From positions 1 to 40,313 of the forward strand of contig JACREX010000208.1 in the NCBI GenBank assembly GCA_016212695.1: 40,313 nucleotides of DNA, read 5' to 3'. The stretch is from Bacteroidia bacterium. Its GTDB lineage: Bacteria; Bacteroidota; Bacteroidia; Bacteroidales; GWF2-35-48. Shown here piece by piece: positions 2,568-39,231 of this stretch. The notes beneath the pieces are model-generated. The model ran no database searches, was not told the DNA's origin, and worked only from the letters and a program-made list of their open reading frames with translations. A program made the translations under genes and the position numbers. The stretch's first letter is position 1. The number at the start of each line of letters is the position of its first letter.

Positions 2568-3137
2568 TTAATTTTCGTTTTTTTCAAGTATTATTTTCAG
2601 GTTTCTTTTTCCGTTCTGGATATAGCTTTTCACCTGTTCAAACGAATAGCCGGTATTTCCGGATATTTCATGATACGACATTCCTTTCAGGTAAAATAAT
2701 TCGATGCACACCCGCTGTTCGTCTTTGAGCCCTGTTAATGCTGATTCCAGCAGGCACAACTGTTCTTCCCTAATGATAAAATCATCATCATTGGCAATTT
2801 CCGGAAATTCAGCATTGTATTTTTTTTCTCTTTCCATGGTTTTTTGGTTTTTCCGCAAGATCATCAGGCAGCGGTTTTTGGTTACCGAATAAAGCCATGT
2901 CTTGAAATTATTTATTTCATATACCTTAAGTTCTTCGATCAGGTTTTCAAAGATCAGCAGCACGGTATCTTTGCTTTCCGGGGTGTTCTGCAGGTATTTC
3001 AGACAAACGCCGTACACTAAGGGAGAATACCGTTCAAATATCTCCCCGATATATTTTTTATCCCCGCTTTCCTTATACCAGCTTATAAGTTGCTGATCGG
3101 AATAATTTCCCAGTCGTTTTTTATAAAGAAACTGCAT
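2568..3137 (-). CDS. ECF-type RNA polymerase sigma factor
   Basis: A 189-residue sigma-70 family protein of usual ECF length. Region 2 lies at about residues 20-95, including YSPLVYGVCLKYLQN and the FKTWLYSVTKNRCLMILRK segment that corresponds to region 2.3/2.4. Region 4 lies at about 128-182 (LTGLKDEQRVCIELFYLKGM, then YHEISGNTGYSFEQVKSYIQ), a helix-turn-helix that would read the -35 element. It sits between a plug-domain protein gene 54 nt upstream and the anti-sigma-like gene 4 nt downstream, all on one strand. It probably controls a cell-surface signalling regulon. It could be functionally equivalent to SigP, the ECF factor tied to PorX/PorY in P. gingivalis, but nothing in the sequence proves this. 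Confidence 0.88.
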   Translation of the reverse strand: MQFLYKKRLGNYSDQQLISWYKESGDKKYIGEIFERYSPLVYGVCLKYLQNTPESKDTVLLIFENLIEELKVYEINNFKTWLYSVTKNRCLMILRKNQKTMEREKKYNAEFPEIANDDDFIIREEQLCLLESALTGLKDEQRVCIELFYLKGMSYHEISGNTGYSFEQVKSYIQNGKRNLKIILEKNEN

Positions 3138-8330: not shown

Positions 8331-8888
8331 ATGAAAATTAAAATTGGTCATCAGTCATCAGTCACCTGTGGTGAGCATTGCCGAACCATCAATCGTAAAT
8401 GGCTTTCCCTTATACCCTATTTTTTCCTCCTCTCATTCTCTGCTGCCGCTCAAAATGAATTATCAAAAGAAACTCCAGATAATAACAACTATTCTTTTGC
8501 TCCAAATACGAATGTACAGCTTATTGTTCCGCTTCATTTCAAGCCCTATGAATCCATTAATGGTTTTATGCACCCGGGCTCATCGGCAACCCTGCAGGTA
8601 AAAGAAATTGACAAATCGTTTAAAAGCGTAGTAAAGAACATTAGCGATGAAACATTTACAAGCCAGAATTGCAGGCTTATTACAAAAGCAGAAGTTAAAA
8701 CCGCTAATGAAAAAGACGCTGTTATTTACATAGTATCATTTACAACAGGCGGCATTCCATATGAACGGATGATGCTGATTACAGGCGATGATAAAAAGGC
8801 CGTATGGATCAATGCAAATTACCCCGAGGAAATAAAAATTCTATTGGTGGATGTAATCCGGAAAAGCCTGTTATCTGTTAAATATTAG
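8331..8888 (+). CDS. Exported protein with PsbP/DUF1795-like fold
   Basis: A 185-residue protein. After an unusual 23-residue N-terminal extension it has a signal peptide core (WLSLIPYFFLLSFSAAAQ). The mature part, about 50-185, has the order of elements seen in PsbP-like/DUF1795 proteins: VQLIVPLHFKPYESINGFMH, then ATLQVKEIDKSFKSVVKN, then a late strand before YPEEIKILLVDVIRKSLLSV. The family resemblance is from pattern only. The extension contains a heptad repeat (8347-8367) that is translated as part of residues 6-12, so the start of the gene seems to have been altered by repeat insertion. It is 5 nt upstream of the large cargo gene and may assist its secretion. Confidence 0.7.
   Translation: MKIKIGHQSSVTCGEHCRTINRKWLSLIPYFFLLSFSAAAQNELSKETPDNNNYSFAPNTNVQLIVPLHFKPYESINGFMHPGSSATLQVKEIDKSFKSVVKNISDETFTSQNCRLITKAEVKTANEKDAVIYIVSFTTGGIPYERMMLITGDDKKAVWINANYPEEIKILLVDVIRKSLLSVKY
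8347..8367. repeat. Heptad repeat GTCATCA inside a coding start
   Basis: GTCATCA occurs twice in tandem (8347-8360), followed by the related heptad GTCACCT (8361-8367). It lies between the ATG and the signal peptide of the exported protein at 8331. Because 7 is not a multiple of 3, gain or loss of a unit would shift the reading frame. Confidence 0.6.
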
Positions 8889-15504: not shown

Positions 15505-15579
15505 ATGTCAAATTTATGATGTCAAATGTCAGATGTTTCCTTGTCGCTTTATCTTGTTGTATGCTTGTAAATTTGACAT
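15505..15579. repeat. Heptad array and 12-bp inverted repeat between genes
   Basis: TGTCAAA starts at 15506 and 15520, and TGTCAGA at 15527, all in one 7-nt phase with a fourth heptad between them (15513-15519). In addition, ATGTCAAATTTA (15505-15516) is repeated inverted as TAAATTTGACAT (15568-15579), with 51 bp between the arms. The right arm contains a TAnnTTTG word (15568-15575) that could also serve as a -7 box for the next gene. No -33 element is well placed. Confidence 0.6.
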
Positions 15580-18581: not shown

Positions 18582-19700
18582 ATGGAAACCATACAAAAAA
18601 TTCCTTTTTTCGGAATTGACAGATTTTATAAAAAATACAGCGCTGAAGTTTCAGAAATAATTTCAACCGTGTATCAAACCGGGCAGATGATGGACGGCCC
18701 TTCTGTTGCCGGGTTTGAAAAAAACATAGCCGCATACTGCAACAGAAAACATGCCATAACAGTAAACAACTGCACGGATGCTTTGTATTTTTCCCTTAAA
18801 CTTGCCGGTATAAAAGAAGGCGACGAAATTTTAATCACCGGGTATTCATTCATCGCTTCCGTTACGCCTATATTAATGCTTAATGCAATCCCTGTTTTTG
18901 TAGATATTGAACCGGATTATTTTAGTATGGACATGAACGACCTTGAAAAAAAGATCACAAAAAAAACCAAAGCCATCTTAGCGGTTCATCTTTACGGACA
19001 AGCCATGCCGCTTGACATACTTGAAACGCTCTCTGCAAAATATAACCTGATATTGATTGAAGACGGAGCCCAGGCTTTGGGTTGCTCTTATAAAAATAAA
19101 AAAGTCGGCAGTACAGGTTTGCTTAGTTGCACAAGTTTTGACCCGACCAAAATTATCGGGGCATTTGGCACAGGCGGAGTACTGTTTACGGATGATTATG
19201 AAATTTACAAAGAAGCTAAAAAGCTGAGATATCACGGCAAAAACGATAAAGGGCAATATGAAATGCTTGGCTATAACAGCAGGATCAATTCAGCACAGGC
19301 GGCATTATTAGATTTTCAGTTAATGAAGATTGAAGATATAATCTTACAACGGCGTAATGTAGCTGAATTATACAATCGCTACCTGAAAGAAATCCCTCGT
19401 TTAGAAACTCCGAAAATAAATCCGGACGGCATTGCCACCTTCCATAAATATGTGATAAAAACCGAAAAACGGGATGAGTTGAAAAAATATTTAGGAACGC
19501 AGGGAATACATACCATGATACATTATGATAAAGCAATGTTCGAAAATGTCCTGTTTGAAAAATTTGATTACAAAGCCGAAAATATTCACCGGATACACCG
19601 GATTAAAAACAAAGTGTTATCTCTTCCGGTTTATCCCGGGTTGACAGAAAATGAGGCAGGGTATATCTGCCAAAAAATAAAAGAATTTTATTCATACTGA
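18582..19700 (+). CDS. DegT/DnrJ/EryC1 sugar aminotransferase
   Basis: A 372-residue PLP-dependent aminotransferase of the sugar-nucleotide family. The N-terminus has GQMMDGPSVAGFEKNIAAYC. The PLP ring-binding segment is IEDGAQALG (Asp161), and the Schiff-base lysine is Lys190 in SFDPTKIIGAFGTGG. The end of the fold (LGYNSRINSAQAALLDFQL) is also conserved. It would transfer an amino group from glutamate to a 3-keto or 4-keto nucleotide sugar. The closest functional types are FdtB/QdtB, WbpE/PorR and PglE, and I cannot choose between them by eye. The acetyltransferase encoded next is the natural partner for acylating the new amino group. It is the first gene of the surface-sugar cluster. Confidence 0.9.
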   Translation: METIQKIPFFGIDRFYKKYSAEVSEIISTVYQTGQMMDGPSVAGFEKNIAAYCNRKHAITVNNCTDALYFSLKLAGIKEGDEILITGYSFIASVTPILMLNAIPVFVDIEPDYFSMDMNDLEKKITKKTKAILAVHLYGQAMPLDILETLSAKYNLILIEDGAQALGCSYKNKKVGSTGLLSCTSFDPTKIIGAFGTGGVLFTDDYEIYKEAKKLRYHGKNDKGQYEMLGYNSRINSAQAALLDFQLMKIEDIILQRRNVAELYNRYLKEIPRLETPKINPDGIATFHKYVIKTEKRDELKKYLGTQGIHTMIHYDKAMFENVLFEKFDYKAENIHRIHRIKNKVLSLPVYPGLTENEAGYICQKIKEFYSY

Positions 19701-19762
19701 TGACCGACGATTAACGACCGATTACCGATTACCGATTACCGATTACTGGTTACTGGTTAACA
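19700..19762. repeat. Nine-heptad array between sugar genes
   Basis: Nine consecutive heptads run in one phase from 19700 to 19762. ATTACCG occurs three times in succession (19721-19741), followed by ATTACTG, GTTACTG and GTTAACA, and preceded by the related heptads ATGACCG, ACGATTA and ACGACCG. The array begins on the last base of the aminotransferase stop codon. The rest of the 145-bp gap is plain AT-rich sequence. Confidence 0.8.
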
Positions 19763-27760: not shown

Positions 27761-29317
27761 ATGAAGAATATTTCTATATTGTGGACCGACGACGAGATTG
27801 ATCTGCTGAAACCCCATATCATGTTTCTTGAAGCAAAAGGATTCCATGTAGCCACTGCCAGCAACGGGGATGATGCTGTGGATCAAGTGAAAAAGAATAA
27901 TTTTGATATCATTTTTCTGGATGAGAACATGCCCGGGTTAAGCGGTCTTCAGACCTTGGCAAAAATAAAAGATATCAGCCCTGAAGTACCGGTGGTGATG
28001 ATAACAAAAAGTGAAGAAGAAGATATTATGGAAGAGGCTATCGGTTCCAAAATATCAGACTACCTTATAAAACCTGTTAACCCGAATCAAATACTTCTCT
28101 CCATAAAAAAAAATATTGATACCAAGCGGCTCATCACTAAAAAAACCACTTCAGATTATCAGGCCGAATTCGCAAAACTTGCCATGTTGATCAATGAGGC
28201 AAGAACCTATACCGATTGGATTGCCGTGTACAGAAAACTTGTTTACTGGGAACTGGAACTGGAGGCTTCGAACGACAATACCATGGATGAAGTATTGCGT
28301 ATGCAAAAAGCTGAAGCCAACAATGCTTTTGCAAAATTTGTAAAAAAGAATTACCTCAACTGGTTTGATAAAAATGTTCTAGATAAACCGCTTTTATCGC
28401 CGGGCTTATTCAAATCGAAAATATTCCCTATTCTCGACAAGCAGCAGAAAGTATTTATGATTTTAATTGATAATCTCAGGTATGACCAGTGGAAAACCAT
28501 ACAACTCTTAGTCTCCGAGTATTATAATATTGACGACGACGGGATTTATTTCAGTATTCTGCCAACCGCAACCCAGTATGCCCGCAATGCCATATTTTCC
28601 GGATTGATGCCCTCTGAAATCGGAAGGCTTCACCCGGATTTCTGGATAGATGAAGAAGACGAAGAAGGGAAAAATATCCATGAAGAAGAATTGCTGGGAA
28701 AACAGTTGAACCGTTCAGGAAAAAATTTCAAAATACATTTCGAAAAAATTTTTGATAACAAAGCAGGCGAAAAATTGGTTGAAAACTTAGGAAACATCCT
28801 GGATAATCTGTTAAATGTAGTTGTATTTAATTTTGTTGACATGCTCTCCCATGCCCGCACGGAGTCGAAGATGATCCGCGAACTGGCCAATGACGAATCG
28901 GCCTACCGCTCTCTTTCTTTGTCGTGGTTCAAACATTCTCCGCTTCTTAATTTAATTAAGGAATTATCCCTGAAAAACATTAAGATTATTCTCACTACCG
29001 ATCACGGAGCTATTCGGGTTGGCAATCCCATCAAGGTTATCGGGGACAAAAACATAAGCACCAATCTGCGGTACAAGCAGGGGAAAAGTTTAAATTATAA
29101 TCCCAAAGAGGTATTTGAGGTTACCCAGCCGCAGAGAGCCTATTTACCCTCTGCGAATATGAGCACTTCTTATATTTTTGCAACTAATGATGATTTTTTT
29201 GCTTATCCGAATAACTACAACCATTATGTGAAATACTATAAAGACACGTTTCAGCACGGCGGTATTTCATTGGAAGAAATGCTGATCCCATTAATAACAC
29301 TCAGCCCGAAATCCTGA
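27761..29317 (+). CDS. porX: PorX: response regulator fused to a PglZ alkaline-phosphatase-like domain
   Basis: A 518-residue protein. Residues 1-120 form a receiver domain with acidic residues at WTDDE, the phosphorylated Asp54 in FLDENMPG and the lysine of YLIKPVNP. The C-terminal part (about 200-518) is a PglZ domain with metal-binding candidates in LIDNLRYDQW (near 233), the TATQYARN nucleophile region (near 269), TTDHGAI (near 411) and FQHGGISLEEM (near 497). In P. gingivalis PorX works with the kinase PorY and the sigma factor SigP to control T9SS genes, and its PglZ domain hydrolyses nucleotides. PorY is not in this window. The gene overlaps tsaE by one base (TGATG). Confidence 0.93.
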   Translation: MKNISILWTDDEIDLLKPHIMFLEAKGFHVATASNGDDAVDQVKKNNFDIIFLDENMPGLSGLQTLAKIKDISPEVPVVMITKSEEEDIMEEAIGSKISDYLIKPVNPNQILLSIKKNIDTKRLITKKTTSDYQAEFAKLAMLINEARTYTDWIAVYRKLVYWELELEASNDNTMDEVLRMQKAEANNAFAKFVKKNYLNWFDKNVLDKPLLSPGLFKSKIFPILDKQQKVFMILIDNLRYDQWKTIQLLVSEYYNIDDDGIYFSILPTATQYARNAIFSGLMPSEIGRLHPDFWIDEEDEEGKNIHEEELLGKQLNRSGKNFKIHFEKIFDNKAGEKLVENLGNILDNLLNVVVFNFVDMLSHARTESKMIRELANDESAYRSLSLSWFKHSPLLNLIKELSLKNIKIILTTDHGAIRVGNPIKVIGDKNISTNLRYKQGKSLNYNPKEVFEVTQPQRAYLPSANMSTSYIFATNDDFFAYPNNYNHYVKYYKDTFQHGGISLEEMLIPLITLSPKS

Positions 29318-32488: not shown

Positions 32489-35488
32489 ATGCTCGAAGGT
32501 AAAAATATTAAACTGATTAAAGTCGCAAAAGAGTTTAATGTTGGGATTCCCACCATCGTTGACTTTCTCAAGAAAAAAGGTATTGAGATAGACTCGAACC
32601 CAAACACTAAAATCACAGATGAGGCTTTTTCTCTGCTTGTAAAAGAGTATAGTACCGATAGCAATATTAAAAAGGAGTCGAAAGAACTCAGCCTTCGCAA
32701 TAAAGAAAAAAGAGAAAGCCTTGCCCTTGACATGGAAAGCTATAAAAAAGAACCCTCTCAGGATGTTGAAGATACAATTCAGATTAAAGATTTTAGCGGA
32801 AAATCAAATGAAATCCATGTAAAAGTTATTGGTAAAACAGAACTGGAATCCGAAGCGAAAAAGAAAGCTGCAACCGAAAAAGAAACAAAAGAAAAACAAG
32901 CAAAAGATAAAAAAACTGAAGAAAAACAGGTGGAAAAAAAGAAAACAGAAAAGAAAACCGCTGCCGAAAAGAAAAAAGAAGAAAAAACCGCTCAGAAAAT
33001 CATTGAAGAAATACCTACCGAAAAAATTGAACTTGAAGAACCTAAAGTTTTAGGTAAAATTGATCTGGATTCAATCAACCAGAAAACCCGTCCTGCAAAG
33101 AAAACCCGGAAAGAGAAAGACCAAGAGAGAAAAGAAAAAGAAAAGGAGAAAGAAAAAGCGAGAAGGCTTGCAAAAGAATTAAAAAAGAAAAAGCGGAGCA
33201 AAGAAGAAGCCGAAGATTTAAAAGCCGAGATCGATTCTGAAGTTGAACAGGAAGCCGATGCTATTCAATCTGCAAATCTGGACGATATCGGAATAAAAGA
33301 GGACAATGTTTTTCATACGGTAGTTGAGAAATTGTCGGGACCAACTGTTTTAGGCCGGATGGACCTGCCGGTAAAAGAAGATAAAAAGCCACCCGTTATT
33401 CCACTGCCGGGTGATGAGAAAAATAAAGAATTTAGGAAAAAGAAAAAACGTAAAAGAATAAAAAAGGATAAAGAAGAATTTGTTTCTCTCGATCCGAAAT
33501 TTGAAGAAAAGGTTCATGAAGGAGGAGTAAAAAAGAAAAAATTCTTTGAAAGAAGAGATAAAAAAAGAATTTATAAAATTGAAGTGGATGAAGAGGAAGT
33601 GGATAAGCAGATGAAAGAAACTCTTTCAATAATGTCATCAAAAACAAAATCAAAAACCTCAAAATACAGAAAAGAAAAAAGAGAAGAAGCCAGCCAGAAA
33701 CTGCAGGAAGAAATTGAAAGGCAGGAAGCGGAAAAAAATATTCTGAAGGTTACTGAATTCGTTACGGTGAATGAACTTGCTTCTATGATGAATGTGCCGG
33801 CTACCCAGATTATCGCTACCTGTATGAACTTAGGTTTGTTTGTTTCCATAAATCAGCGCCTCGACGCCGAAACCATGGCTCTTGTTGCCGAAGAATTCGG
33901 TTTTAAAATAGAATTTGTAAGTATAGAAGCATTAAAAGATATTGTTGAGGAAGAAGATAAACCCGAGGACCTTGTTTTCCGTCCACCCATTGTTACGGTG
34001 ATGGGACATGTTGACCATGGAAAAACAAAACTGCTCGATTTTATCAGGAATACCAATGTGGTTGCCGGTGAAGCCGGAGGAATTACCCAGCACATCGGCG
34101 CATACCACGTTACCCTTGAGGGTGGGAAAAAGATTACCTTCTTAGACACTCCGGGCCACGAAGCATTTACTGCTATGCGCGCCCGCGGTGCGCAGGTTAC
34201 AGACATCGCAATTATTGTAATTGCAGCCGACGATAATGTGATGCCCCAGACAATAGAAGCAATCAACCATGCACAGGCGGCGGGCGTTCCCATTGTTTTT
34301 GCAATCAATAAAATTGATAAACCCACGGCAAATCCTGAAAAGATAAAAGAAGAATTAGCGAAAATGAATCTTTTAGTCGAAGACTGGGGCGGTAAATACC
34401 AGTGCCAGGAAATAGCCGCAAAACCGGGGCTTAATGTGAATCTTCTTTTGGAAAAAATATTGCTCGAAGCCGAGATGCTCGACCTGAAAGCAAACCCGGC
34501 TAAACGGGCCGTAGGTACGGTTATCGAATCGTCATTAGACAAAGGCCGCGGCTATGTTGCAACGGTTCTTGTAAAAGCGGGCACGTTGAAGATCGGCGAT
34601 ATTCTTCTTGCAGGAAGTTATTCCGGCCATATAAAAGCCATGTATAATGAAAGAGGACAAAAAATTACAGAAGCGGGCCCTTCTGTTCCGGCCATGATCC
34701 TTGGCCTGAACGGAGCTCCCCAGGCAGGCGATCCGTTTAATGTTATGGAAAGTGAACGCGAGGCGCGCGAAATCGCCAACAAACGCGAACAACTGCAACG
34801 CGAGCAGGGCCTTAGAACTCAAAAGCACATTACGCTTGATGAAATCGGGCGCCGCCTGGCTATAGGCAATTTCAAAGAAATAAATCTTATCGTGAAAGGC
34901 GACGTTGACGGCTCCATCGAAGCTTTATCCGATTCGCTGATAAAATTATCCAATGAAGAAATCCAGGTAAGCGTTATTCATAAAGCAGTCGGACAGATTT
35001 CTGAATCGGATGTAATGCTGGCTTCTGCATCCAATGCAGTGATTGTGGGATTCCAGGTAAGGCCGTCGGTGGCTGCCCGAAAACTTGCAGAACGCGAACA
35101 AATTGAAATCCGCCTTTACTCCATTATCTATGATGCCATCGAAGAATTAAAAGCCGCTATGGAAGGCATGCTTTCACCCGAATTGAAAGAAGACGTTATA
35201 GGTACGGCAGAGATAAAAGAGGTATTCAAGATAACAAAGGTTGGTTCAATAGCCGGCTGCTTAGTTCTCGACGGAAAAATCAACCGCCATGTAAAAGTCC
35301 GCGTGATCCGCGAGGGTATTGTGATTTACACAGGAGAACTTGGGTCGCTAAAGCGTTTCAAGGATGATGCAAAAGAAGTGAGCGCAGGCCTTGAATGCGG
35401 TTTGAATATTGATAAATACAATGATATCAAAGCAGGCGACCTGGTGGAAGCCTTTACTATATCGGAAGTAAAGAAAAAGCTGAATTAA
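32489..35488 (+). CDS. infB: Translation initiation factor IF-2
   Basis: A 999-residue protein from the ATG at 32489; the open frame reaches a TTG inside nusA, but [20 protein letters not shown] is the normal IF-2N start. Residues about 60-440 are a very Lys/Glu-rich low-complexity linker, longer than usual. The GTPase domain has GHVDHGKT near residue 505, DTPGHEAF near 553 and NKID near 607, with [10 protein letters not shown] as switch I. Domains II, III and C follow ([52 protein letters not shown]). It places initiator tRNA on the 30S subunit. Its stop overlaps the stop of the convergent exported-protein gene by 4 bp. Confidence 0.97.
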
Positions 35489-35973
35489 TCCATTTCTTTT
35501 AATATAAATATCACAACGTTTTTAATTCCGTCATTAAAATCGGAACAGCCCACAGATGAGTTGTTACCGAATTGGGGAATTAACGTGAAATTATCCAAAT
35601 TGAACTCCATGGTCATCTTTTTACTGGTTCCTTCAACTTCAGGGGCAAGGCCTTTGTCGTTCACAGTAGTGAACTTAATATGATCTAAGTTTTTCTTTAC
35701 ATCGCTGTCTCCCTTTTTAACAGAAAGAGCCATACAATGGGTTTTTAAAATTTCTTTTTTCTTATCTTTTTTCACTTTATAAATAATGAGACCATATGTC
35801 TCAATTGTAGTGGTCATCATCTCTTTTTTCCCGGGACAGGTAGTTTCGTATTCATATTCCTTGCCATCATAGCTAAGCCTTCCGGAATATTTGTTCGTGT
35901 TCTGGCTCAGAGCCGTCATTGTTAAGCCTGTCAGCATAAAACATACTGAAAAGAAAAGCATAAATTTTTTCAT
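35485..35973 (-). CDS. Small exported protein of unknown function
   Basis: A 162-residue protein starting at the ATG at 35973 ([20 protein letters not shown], cleavage after LSQ). The open frame extends further upstream to 36045, but that part is encoded by the heptad array and is unlikely to be translated. The mature protein is rich in Lys, Thr and beta-strands ([38 protein letters not shown]) with Cys in TTCPGKK, KTHCM and VGCSDF. I do not recognise a family. It converges on infB, with the two stop codons overlapping by 4 bp, so mutual read-through or antisense effects are possible. Confidence 0.68.
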
Positions 35974-35983
35974 ATACATTAGT

Positions 35984-36067
35984 TTTAGATTTGTGATTTT
36001 TTGATTTATAATTAAAAATTTAGAATTTACGATTTCATACCTCATACCTCATATTTCATATTTCATG
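35984..36067. repeat. Twelve-heptad phased array
   Basis: Twelve consecutive 7-nt units keep one phase over 84 nt. Read on the plus strand most begin TTT: TTTAGAT, TTGTGAT, TTTATAA, TTTAGAA, TTTACGA, then TTTCATA and CCTCATA words (CCTCATA twice in tandem at 36040-36053), ending TTTCATG. On the minus strand the units read as xxxxAAA or TATGAGG. The array lies 10 nt upstream of the ATG of the exported protein at 35973. Confidence 0.8.
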
Positions 36068-36106: not shown

Positions 36107-36114
36107 TACCTTTG
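36107..36114 (+). promoter_or_regulatory. Possible -7 box for the YD-repeat protein gene
   Basis: TACCTTTG fits TAnnTTTG and lies 22 bp before the ATG at 36137. No TTTG is found 19-20 bp upstream, so only half of the promoter is supported. Confidence 0.38.
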
Positions 36115-36136: not shown

Positions 36137-37372
36137 ATGCCCGGCATTTCAAAAAAACCAATTATTATAATCCTGACAGGTATTATTTTAATTTTATTGC
36201 TTGCCCTCTTTCTTCTCTGGCATCATTATAATAAAACAGCAACTCCACCAGCCATAAAAGTCCCTGTAAAAAAATATGTTCATAAAATAAAACCGGATAA
36301 TCTTTATTCATCAAATAAATATTACAAATGGGTTAATGGGGCGCTTTGCTACCGCGAAGTATTCACATTCGACGGGAAAGGCCGCGTGAAAGAAAAAAAA
36401 CGTATCAAGCCCGACGGGACCACGATCAGGAGATATACGTTCACGTATGATAAAACGGGAAATACAACGGAATGGAATATTTATAACTCCGACGATATCC
36501 TGAATTATAAGGTGATTTACCAATACGACAAAAACGGGAATGAAACCGGAAAAAAAATATTTGTTGCCGACGGAACCTTGATTGCCAACAATGATTTGGT
36601 TTACACGAATAAAGAAAACATAACCCTTGATACCAGTAACCAGGTAATTGTTTCCCTCGATTATAAATCAAGTTTTATTTACGACAACCGGGGCAATAAA
36701 TTGGAAGAAGATATTTTTTACGAAAACGGAAGTTTGTTTCTTCTGAATACTTTTTCGTATGATGATAAAAGCAGGAAAACCGAAGAAAACAATTTTAACT
36801 CAAAACATAATTTAATCACGAAATATACCTGCACTTACGATGAAAAGGGCCATAAAACGGAAGAGAGCAGTTTCAATCCCACAGGTCTTTACAGGAGATA
36901 TAAATATACCTATGACGACAAAGGCAATGTTACGTCTTTATCGAACCTTGCTCCCAATGGAAATCTGCTGAGAAAATACGACTATGAGTACGACGGCAAA
37001 AATCATAGAATCAGCGAAACCTGCACAAGAGCGGATGGTACTCTCGACGAAAAAATATTGTACACGTATGATGCTAACGGAAATAAAACAGAAGAAAAAA
37101 TCTTGCTGGGAAATGGTAATCAAAGCGGCAGGAATACATACCTGTATGATAAAAAGGGAAAAAAGAAAGAAGAACGAAACTATAACGAAAACAATGTACT
37201 GGTTGCCATTACTACCTATAAATACGATGCTAAAGGGAATGAGACCGAAGTGGCAACTTTTAACTCTTCTATGGCGCTGACACAAAAATTTCTTTACGCG
37301 TATGATTATGATAAAAAAGGAAATGTCATACGTAAGAATACTTTCTCTTCCGATAAAGGAGGCGGTAAGTAA
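36137..37372 (+). CDS. Membrane-anchored YD/RHS-like repeat protein
   Basis: A 411-residue protein with one N-terminal membrane helix (residues about 7-29, IIIILTGIILILLLALFLLW) and no cleavage site, so it is probably anchored in the inner membrane and faces the periplasm. From about residue 60 to the end it consists of roughly a dozen repeats of about 22-25 residues of the type YTYDDKGNVTSLSNL, YEYDGKNHRISETC, YTYDANGNKTEEKIL and YKYDAKGNETEVATF. These resemble the YD repeats of RHS proteins that build beta cocoons, but this protein is short and has no toxin tip. The function is unknown. It is flanked by repeat-rich DNA on both sides. Confidence 0.75.
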   Translation: MPGISKKPIIIILTGIILILLLALFLLWHHYNKTATPPAIKVPVKKYVHKIKPDNLYSSNKYYKWVNGALCYREVFTFDGKGRVKEKKRIKPDGTTIRRYTFTYDKTGNTTEWNIYNSDDILNYKVIYQYDKNGNETGKKIFVADGTLIANNDLVYTNKENITLDTSNQVIVSLDYKSSFIYDNRGNKLEEDIFYENGSLFLLNTFSYDDKSRKTEENNFNSKHNLITKYTCTYDEKGHKTEESSFNPTGLYRRYKYTYDDKGNVTSLSNLAPNGNLLRKYDYEYDGKNHRISETCTRADGTLDEKILYTYDANGNKTEEKILLGNGNQSGRNTYLYDKKGKKKEERNYNENNVLVAITTYKYDAKGNETEVATFNSSMALTQKFLYAYDYDKKGNVIRKNTFSSDKGGGK

Positions 37373-37446: not shown

Positions 37447-39231
37447 TTATTTCAAAATAGAAATTTTTGAAGTAATCATCCGGTTGCCCATCGTTACATT
37501 TATAAAATATATACCATTGATAAGGTTTGTAAAATCAAGCCGGTACTGGTTCTGTTCCATTTTTGTTATATAAAAGCCAACCGGTTTACCCATCATATCA
37601 TACACTTTAACATCCACCTTTCCGGATAATTCTTCCCCCAGGTCAATAACTGCAAAATCACCTGCCGGATTCGGGAAGATGATGATATTATCATTGGTTT
37701 TTACTTCATTCACACCTGTGAGGCAGGGTATAATCATCAAATCAAGAGAAGAAGTTTTGTTGTAAACAGCCTGGCAGGTTTTCCATGTACCGCTGTTGTA
37801 TACATACATGGTGTTGTTGCCATACATACCCCTGTCGAGCGCCATATTGAAAACAACCGTATCCGGCGAAGTAACGTGGGAAAGGTCGTAACCGACAAAG
37901 AAAGTCCCGTCAATAGGCACCGGAACGGTAAAATTTATCTGGTTGTAACAATTTGGGACCAGCGTGGTATTTGAAAGATTTACATTAACGGAACCAAGCG
38001 CTGTGCCGGCGGGTGTTGTTGTGCCGCCCCATATCTTAAAGGTAACATAGGATGTGGTATTCAGATGTAATATTCTTTTTCTGACAGAAATAATGATCCG
38101 GTTAACTTCATTGAAAGAATAACTCGAAAATTTTTCGGCATAAATCTTTCCATACTTGTTCGAGCCCGGAAGATATCCCATACCCGACGATGAAGGAACC
38201 TGGTAGAAAGTAATAAGTTCGCTTTGCAGGACATTGGTTAGCGTGTCGCAGTAACTTGGAATTTGAGCGGTTGTTACAAGAATATATTCGGTTTTTGTCA
38301 ACGTACCCGAACCGTTCGGATTGGTAGCCGTAAGAGTTACATTTTTAAATCCCGTAGTATTGTAAGTTACTCCCATAGGGTTCTGAATATCTGAAGTGGC
38401 AGGTGTTCCGTCGGGAAAATACCACTGCCATTGCAAGGGGTTATTGGTTGACTCATCTGTAAAAGTTATTTCCTGTCCGACAACCGCCAACCTCGGTCCT
38501 GCGGAGAAATCAGCAGTGGGAGCTACAGTTCCCGCATCGGTAAGTACATGAATATATCCCTGCTTTCTTAAAGAATCGCTGCCAAGGGTATTGGTCGCAG
38601 TTAATGTAACATCATATGTGCCTGCAGTATTATATTTGATATAAACCGGATCCTGCAGGGTTGATGTGGACGGCGTGCCTCCCTTGAATTTCCAGAACCA
38701 TGACAGGGGCTCTCCGTGTGTCATATCAAAAAAATTGATACTGTCGCCAACCAGGATGGTTGTGAAATCTGCCGTGAATTTTGCATCAGGAAATAATATG
38801 CTGGGTTCAATAACCGTAATATATCCGGGTTTCATAAGACTGTCGTTACCCGATGTATCGGTTACTTTCAACGCTACGTTATACACTCCGGCGGTATTAT
38901 ATTTTATCTGTGGATTTTGCTGTGTGGATGTATCAGGAGCGCCGCCTGCAAAATACCAATGCCAGCTTGTTATAGGCCCGGATGTAGAAGTAGACAGGTC
39001 GGTAAAATGAACCGTGTCGCCCACTACCACTGTGGTCGTATCACAGGTAAAAGCAGCCGTCGGAGTATCAGCCTTTGCTTTGAGTAAAGCGCTTGGAGCA
39101 TATTTAAAATCAGCAATATTCAGAGAAACATTTTTTGCAAAAAGTAAATTGCAGAAGAGCAGCAATACAAATAAACAGGTTGCAGGTTGCATGTTGCAGA
39201 TCAGATTTTGTTTTTTTTGAACTTTAGTCAT
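37447..39231 (-). CDS. PKD-domain surface protein with T9SS type A sorting domain
   Basis: A 594-residue exported protein. Two starts are possible, ATG at 39231 or ATG at 39192 (MQPATCLFVLLLF); the second gives a more normal signal peptide. Three PKD domains follow at about residues 57-145, 147-232 and 235-320, each with W-W-F-GG-P and YNTAGVYNV-type ends (SWHWYFAGGAPDTSTQQNPQ). A beta-rich domain at about 325-515 (FKIWGGTTTPAGTALGSV) may be an adhesive or binding module. The C-terminus (about 520-594; IIIFPNPAGDFAVIDL, GIYFINVTMGNRMITSKISI) is the type A sorting domain removed by PorU on export. The likely fate is cell-surface attachment or release. Confidence 0.9.
   Translation of the reverse strand: MTKVQKKQNLICNMQPATCLFVLLLFCNLLFAKNVSLNIADFKYAPSALLKAKADTPTAAFTCDTTTVVVGDTVHFTDLSTSTSGPITSWHWYFAGGAPDTSTQQNPQIKYNTAGVYNVALKVTDTSGNDSLMKPGYITVIEPSILFPDAKFTADFTTILVGDSINFFDMTHGEPLSWFWKFKGGTPSTSTLQDPVYIKYNTAGTYDVTLTATNTLGSDSLRKQGYIHVLTDAGTVAPTADFSAGPRLAVVGQEITFTDESTNNPLQWQWYFPDGTPATSDIQNPMGVTYNTTGFKNVTLTATNPNGSGTLTKTEYILVTTAQIPSYCDTLTNVLQSELITFYQVPSSSGMGYLPGSNKYGKIYAEKFSSYSFNEVNRIIISVRKRILHLNTTSYVTFKIWGGTTTPAGTALGSVNVNLSNTTLVPNCYNQINFTVPVPIDGTFFVGYDLSHVTSPDTVVFNMALDRGMYGNNTMYVYNSGTWKTCQAVYNKTSSLDLMIIPCLTGVNEVKTNDNIIIFPNPAGDFAVIDLGEELSGKVDVKVYDMMGKPVGFYITKMEQNQYRLDFTNLINGIYFINVTMGNRMITSKISILK
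39179..39199. repeat. Heptad repeat GTTGCAG in the signal-peptide region
   Basis: GTTGCAG, GTTGCAT and GTTGCAG are consecutive heptads (39179-39199). They overlap the second possible start codon of the PKD protein on the minus strand and encode part of NMQPATC. Confidence 0.65.

Follow-up and report, generated by a model that had tools for sequence, protein, structure and literature searches.

Drifting heptanucleotide arrays in a Bacteroidales genome and their probable growth in 7-nt steps

A heptad array between divergent genes beside infB

The window, meaning the whole 40,313-nucleotide stretch of DNA analyzed here, is contig C131 of a 4.03 Mb genome in 259 contigs. Beside infB it contains a gene gap, bounded by the start of a small secreted protein gene on one strand and that of an RHS repeat protein gene on the other, in which a tandem array of 7-nt units is located (Table 1). 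A longer ORF version of the left neighbor, extending to 36045, would cross this array. The identity of its 84 bases at lag 7 is 0.714, compared with 0.355 ± 0.062 for sequences drawn from a first-order Markov model of the same bases, and it was equaled by none of 20,000 simulated sequences at lag 7 and by none of 5,000 at any lag from 3 to 15. With a segment score of 35, the maximum of the window, it is also the most lag-7-periodic 84-base stretch found there, and its right half is the cleanest part. The first-pass annotation described a strict, single 7-nt phase over the entire array; the periodicity is real, but the phase is imperfect, with a 1-nt slip at 35999, within a T run between TDNGATT-type units, when the GATT motif is followed.

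Table 1. Heptad arrays of the window and the genes flanking the main array
Feature	Positions	Strand	Details
GTCATCA doublet	8347..8367	+	marginal; score 13 over wider stretch
Weak heptad stretch, ATGTCAA-like	15506..15533	.	score 9, within chance
Second strong array, ACTGATG ACCGACG ATTAACG ACCGATT x4 ACTGGTT x2	19696..19759	.	score 33
Small secreted protein gene (left neighbor), no Pfam family	35485..35973	-	start 35973
Main heptad-phased array	35983..36066	.	TTTTAGA TTTGTGA TTTTTTG ATTTATA ATTAAAA ATTTAGA ATTTACG ATTTCAT ACCTCAT ACCTCAT ATTTCAT ATTTCAT
Left block, three TDNGATT-type units	35985..36006	+	TTAGATT 35985-35991, TGTGATT 35992-35998, TTTGATT 36000-36006; from sequence, motif from PMC4476775
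Right block, YYTCATA units	36032..36066	+	matches on own-genome contigs C206, C256, C14, C38, C157, C32 (DNA search, E 2e-8 to 4e-4)
Protein gene with RHS repeats (right neighbor)	36137..37372	+	start 36137; same-genus relative likewise adjoins infB
Short array CAGGTTG CAGGTTG CATGTTG	39176..39198	-	score 14, clear

Four further sites of 7-nt pacing had been listed for the window, two of which hold up as a strong and a clear array, while a third is marginal and the last falls within chance, about 6 lag-7 segments of score ≥8 being expected by chance in 40 kb. The strong array begins where a DegT-type aminotransferase gene ends, at its stop codon, and shares words with other loci. The term intergenic, used in the initial description, applies to the main array but not to two of the other sites: the clear array codes for some of the N-terminal residues of a PKD protein that bears a type IX secretion tail (ORF 37447-39231; translation and Pfam), and the marginal GTCATCA doublet is N-terminal coding sequence of a predicted secreted protein of 185 aa.

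Elsewhere in the window, a gene for a sigma-70 family (ECF-like) sigma factor is found at 2568-3137 and one for a response regulator fused to a PglZ domain at 27761-29317. The region encoding the N-terminus of infB (32870-33160) is built from coding repeats that are rich in A and G and have periods of 6, 15, and 30 nt; these are unrelated to the heptads.

Abundance and distribution of lag-7 arrays

Lag-7 segments were classed as strong at a score of at least 16. By this threshold 662 kb of the genome, sampled without bias, hold 63 such segments, compared with 0-10 at each of the non-harmonic lags between 4 and 20, and with 29 and 27 at the harmonic lags 14 and 21. A larger sample of 823 kb contains 80, against 0 in its order-2 Markov control, and extrapolation from the sampled density gives about 380 arrays for the whole genome. 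In the larger sample 52 of the 80 arrays lie outside ORFs, though ORFs make up 90% of the sequence, an intergenic share that is approximate as ORFs were called by length only. The genome thus carries many short arrays with a 7-base period and words that drift from copy to copy. The first-pass annotation had proposed a search for a genome-wide intergenic excess at lag 7 over controls, and the excess is present; its observation that the same pacing recurs with many different words likewise extends to the genome as a whole, where the excess is specific to lag 7. Chance or AT-rich composition might still be invoked for the smaller sites listed in the window, which are short and include the stretch at 15506-15533. 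As an explanation of the 7-nt pacing it has a negligible probability, since Markov controls yield no lag-7 segments of score ≥16 and no excess of similar size is seen at lag 6 or 8, and for the main array it is refuted.

The genus-level comparison is between one draft genome and a single genome of the same genus (G001), with other genomes sampled as one or a few stretches each. G001 contains 24 lag-7 segments in 299 kb, compared with 2 in 291 kb from 20 genomes of the same order. The infB neighborhoods of 80 further genomes, almost all of them Bacteroidota judging by title, contain 14 lag-7 segments in 1.35 Mb, a number not above that at several other lags; four of these come from 11.8 kb of one MAG from Lac Pavin (L184), with words such as CTCATAA and AACTTAT. 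Four consecutive TDNGATT units occur at 45 sites in the present genome, compared with 12 for the reversed control pattern, and in 37 of 296 Bacteroidota genomes, mostly from other families of the same class, where part of the hits are TTAGATT, whose own reversal is identical, making the reversed control uninformative for those. Three consecutive YYTCATA units are found at eight loci of the present genome and sporadically in six other genomes among 198 searched. The array trait is patchy across Bacteroidota and dense in this genus. Missing mismatch repair was considered as a cause of the genus-level excess and rejected, since MutS is present in all 16 genomes, relatives included.

Unit resemblance and words shared between loci

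Adjacent units are more alike than in shuffled order, both within the main array (p = 0.0002) and across 33 long arrays (z = 16.7). Unit identity declines from.745 to.651,.594,.542, and.492 at distances of 1-5 units, compared with.743,.651,.614,.596, and.587 in simulations of single-unit duplication with mutation, which were put through the same detection procedure because detection itself favors adjacency in part. The initial reading, that slippage was not of the ordinary kind because neighboring units differ, is not supported by these data: neighbors are the most alike, their resemblance decays with distance, and stepwise duplication with mutation yields ladders of this type in simulations that come close to the observed decay, so that the contrast between slippage and differing neighbors fails. 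Beyond three units the observed decay is steeper than the single-unit model predicts. Some joining of arrays would explain this steeper tail, and joined arrays or another process must contribute. End-growth and a purely composite model of two joined arrays were also considered, and each alone fits the decay worse than single-unit duplication. Units of higher order also occur, for example (ATTACTG ATTACCG)n and (AATAACG AATAACG AATTTTG)n, as expected where duplication of several units yields two- or three-unit repeats.

Words are also shared among arrays at different loci. In the unbiased sample of the present genome, 25 array pairs are strongly cross-similar (score ≥20), compared with a mean of 2.6 and a maximum of 8 in 20 replicates of a null in which the history of each array is replayed from a random intergenic heptamer founder. 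In G001 the corresponding number is 20, with 1.4 expected, while pairs between the two genomes (5, with 3.7 expected) are not above chance. A larger, biased sample groups words into clusters around GATTTAG/AAACTTC, ATTACYG, GTCATCC, AACGAAT, and GTTAATT. The main array matches other loci of its own genome over 32-54 nt (E 2e-8 to 2e-7), and the order GATTTnn followed by YYTCATA is found at three loci, the two being intermixed at a fourth. In G001 the equivalent gene gap, from infB to the RHS gene, also contains heptads, but of other, TGTTGCA-like words. Sharing within each genome together with a lack of sharing above chance between the two suggests that seeds probably also spread between loci; words seem to do so within a genome and to turn over between species. 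The case for this spread is built on the sharing of words and on a single composite order present at only three to four loci. No shared flanks, mobile element, or carrier of the spreading words was found. A DNA search for plasmid relatives returned scattered partial matches only, none covering 80% of the query. The CTGAGCnnnGTCGAAG repeat was rejected as an associated element, with 0 of 8 copies near arrays in the present genome and 4 of 9 in G001.

Taken as a whole, the explanation that we consider probable, with considerable room for doubt, combines in-place slippage of 7-nt units and mutation, transfer of seeds between loci, and persistence where constraint is low. DNA synthesis would slip by one 7-nt unit, duplicating or deleting that unit in place, while ongoing point mutation would keep neighbors similar and allow distant units to diverge; the period would be held because only whole 7-nt steps are gained or lost. 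Seeds would be transferred between sites of one genome, probably via template switching or short-homology recombination between arrays, which would give rise to a shared, genome-specific vocabulary and to mixed arrays such as GATTTnn then YYTCATA. The arrays would then persist where sequence presumably matters little: between genes, in signal peptides, in the linkers of proteins, and in one SpoIIE phosphatase loop. Neutral or weakly tolerated growth under low constraint is the simplest account of them. The slippage model leaves the step length of 7 unaccounted for. One hypothesis relates the heptamer step to how much DNA the active site of the polymerase accommodates (cited in PMC4692102).

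A simpler version, in which each array arose by independent slippage from its own local heptamer and no exchange took place between loci, would equally produce the resemblance of neighbors and its decay, and would fit the confinement of most doublet words to a single array (54 words in 56 arrays). We regard it as unlikely, given that within-genome word sharing is about 10-fold above the random-founder null and that matches to the main array elsewhere extend over 34 nt and 54 nt (E 2e-8 and 1e-7). The arrays could also be written by a dedicated enzyme, such as a reverse transcriptase that uses a short RNA as its template and copies it 7 nt at a time; the result would likewise be a limited, genome-specific vocabulary and an excess at lag 7 only. 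Such an enzyme appears very improbable as the cause: reverse transcriptases do not segregate with the arrays, the present genome having two weak matches and G001 one while they also occur in 8 of 14 further genomes from the order, the decay between neighbors fits local copying, and the search for a candidate template RNA found none.

A more speculative proposal is that the arrays of one genome evolve in concert, words being exchanged among dispersed arrays while a lineage-specific process amplifies only 7-nt steps, such that the vocabulary turns over within the genus while the sites may stay. We put this forward tentatively, as a possibility that may well prove wrong. If true, it would represent a miniature bacterial counterpart of the concerted evolution of satellites, and it would supply signal peptides and loops with new sequence, because a stop-free 7-nt array codes for a seven-residue periodic peptide in each of its three frames.

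The position of the main array, between divergent starts and upstream of a TAnnTTTG-type box seen by sequence inspection near 36107, would suit rows of 7-bp regulatory units bound by a protein or an RNA-binding factor, a role that has been suggested for TAACTGA sets in Beggiatoaceae (PMC4679880). Against such a role, the words of an array drift from unit to unit, the two genomes have different words at a shared site, and arrays occur in coding sequence as well. Gap type shows no clear preference (co-directional 16/181, divergent 3/60, convergent 2/38). The main array also lacks a stable fold, with non-significant z values of -0.22 and 1.20 for the two strands, and a search of the window gave no Rfam match, so that the array lies in no intron. 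Regulatory function is, on this evidence, quite improbable as the reason for the arrays.

Arrays within genes and known heptamer repeats

Segments internal to ORFs mostly fall in permissive places, where the arrays reshape proteins by supplying signal-peptide sequence and by lengthening a SpoIIE phosphatase loop. A 7-nt array read in any of its three frames without stops gives, by arithmetic, a peptide period of seven residues (21 nt). The signal peptides of several unrelated proteins resemble one another as a result of heptad coding, as in LTLNVQLLTFNCLGQ (L024), LTINCQLSTINCFGQ (L052), LIFNLQLLTSNCHAQ (a GldN protein, L044), and LITFNVKLQTLNCSAQ (L041); enrichment across all 154 predicted signal-peptide ORFs is not significant, with 5 hits at lag 7 and 6 at lag 6 under a loose threshold. 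Four paralogs of SpoIIE phosphatase have arrays within the loop that separates NNPLY from KPDKMP, which there measures 30-45 aa, compared with mostly 12-21 aa in array-free copies. Two of these four share a near-identical loop, with 99% DNA identity against 90% and then 70% downstream.

The SpoIIE phosphatase family is itself unusually large, with 76 match places in the present genome and 62 in G001. Many of its members are split by insertions within one loop in the present genome (L026 17803-18999, L070 4754-7291, L022 12481-14787, L075 11471-14782) and few in G001, and the same loop is also filled by other repeat-like peptides (SEAQRNEAIL, L030).

An overrepresentation of heptameric simple sequence repeats has been reported for many bacteria, the described repeats including GGGGAYT of Nostoc, GGGAATC of Xanthomonas, and three tandem heptanucleotides of Calothrix (PMC4692102). 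The present arrays resemble these in their tandem 7-nt units, which exceed other unit lengths, in their mainly intergenic position, in species-specific words, and in the presence of many arrays between the same genes yet with a sequence that varies between species. They differ in that the known repeats comprise one or a few G-rich words in fairly uniform units, whereas the present arrays drift, contain several word families, and enter coding loops and signal peptides. Degenerate class I heptads of the form TDNGATT are known from the P6b stem-loop of the Nostoc trnL intron (PMC4476775), where, as in the left block of the main array and at the 45 genome sites, the 7-nt step is kept while the letters change. 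The Nostoc heptads lie in one intron helix and must fold, whereas the main array, with its three tandem units and 1-nt slip, is non-intronic and has no excess fold. The likeness to heptanucleotide STRR repeats of heterocystous cyanobacteria that was proposed from the sequence alone is supported as a general resemblance, with words compared through the TDNGATT consensus only. The accompanying statement that no Bacteroidota counterpart had been named was mistaken: TAACTGA direct repeats have been described in Beggiatoaceae, Cyanobacteria, and five Bacteroidetes, and gene gaps of Bacteroidetes also hold heptamers of other sequence and "larger assemblages of heptamer repeats" (PMC4679880). Those sets share with the present arrays a location in gene gaps and an absence from close relatives, but consist of a fixed word, often upstream of starts, and TAACTGA doublets number 0 in about 1.16 Mb of the present genome.

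Tolerance of small repeats within coding sequence has a precedent. Rickettsia palindromic elements (RPE) are small repeats tolerated in frame within protein-coding genes, though these are palindromes of a fixed type, whereas the present arrays are tandem, drifting, and mostly non-palindromic. The inverted repeats that define REP and RPE sequences are not a feature of the arrays in the present genome, where an inverted partner accompanies 5 of 56 arrays against 1-3 in controls; in G001 it accompanies 6 of 23, a subset only, against 0-3. A general hairpin structure of the arrays was rejected on the grounds that it applies only to this subset in G001 and that the fold of the main array is not significant.

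Compared with known heptamer repeats, the arrays of this genome form a variant that is denser, uses several words, and drifts, with a genome-specific vocabulary and incursions into coding sequence, and a search of the open literature found no paper on that combination. The search likewise found no demonstration of why the heptamer step is 7, despite the overrepresentation of such repeats in many bacteria. A genus with dense, drifting arrays beside nearly array-free relatives offers a natural setting in which to ask which property of polymerase or repair fixes the step length, and whether sequence passes between small arrays on a bacterial chromosome.

Two further repeat elements were observed. 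In G001, GTTGCAG arrays lie in inverted orientation on either side of a CTGAGCGnAGTCGAAG-type hairpin (L092 11540-11640; L101 13909-14060; L111 14247-14330), a composite element not seen in the sample of the present genome. In the present assembly, nine contigs (L004, L005, L006, L010, L011, L012, L015, L016, and L019) have TTTCATCTTTCATATTGCAAA at about 70-90 nt from their end, the pattern expected when assembly breaks at a multi-copy element.
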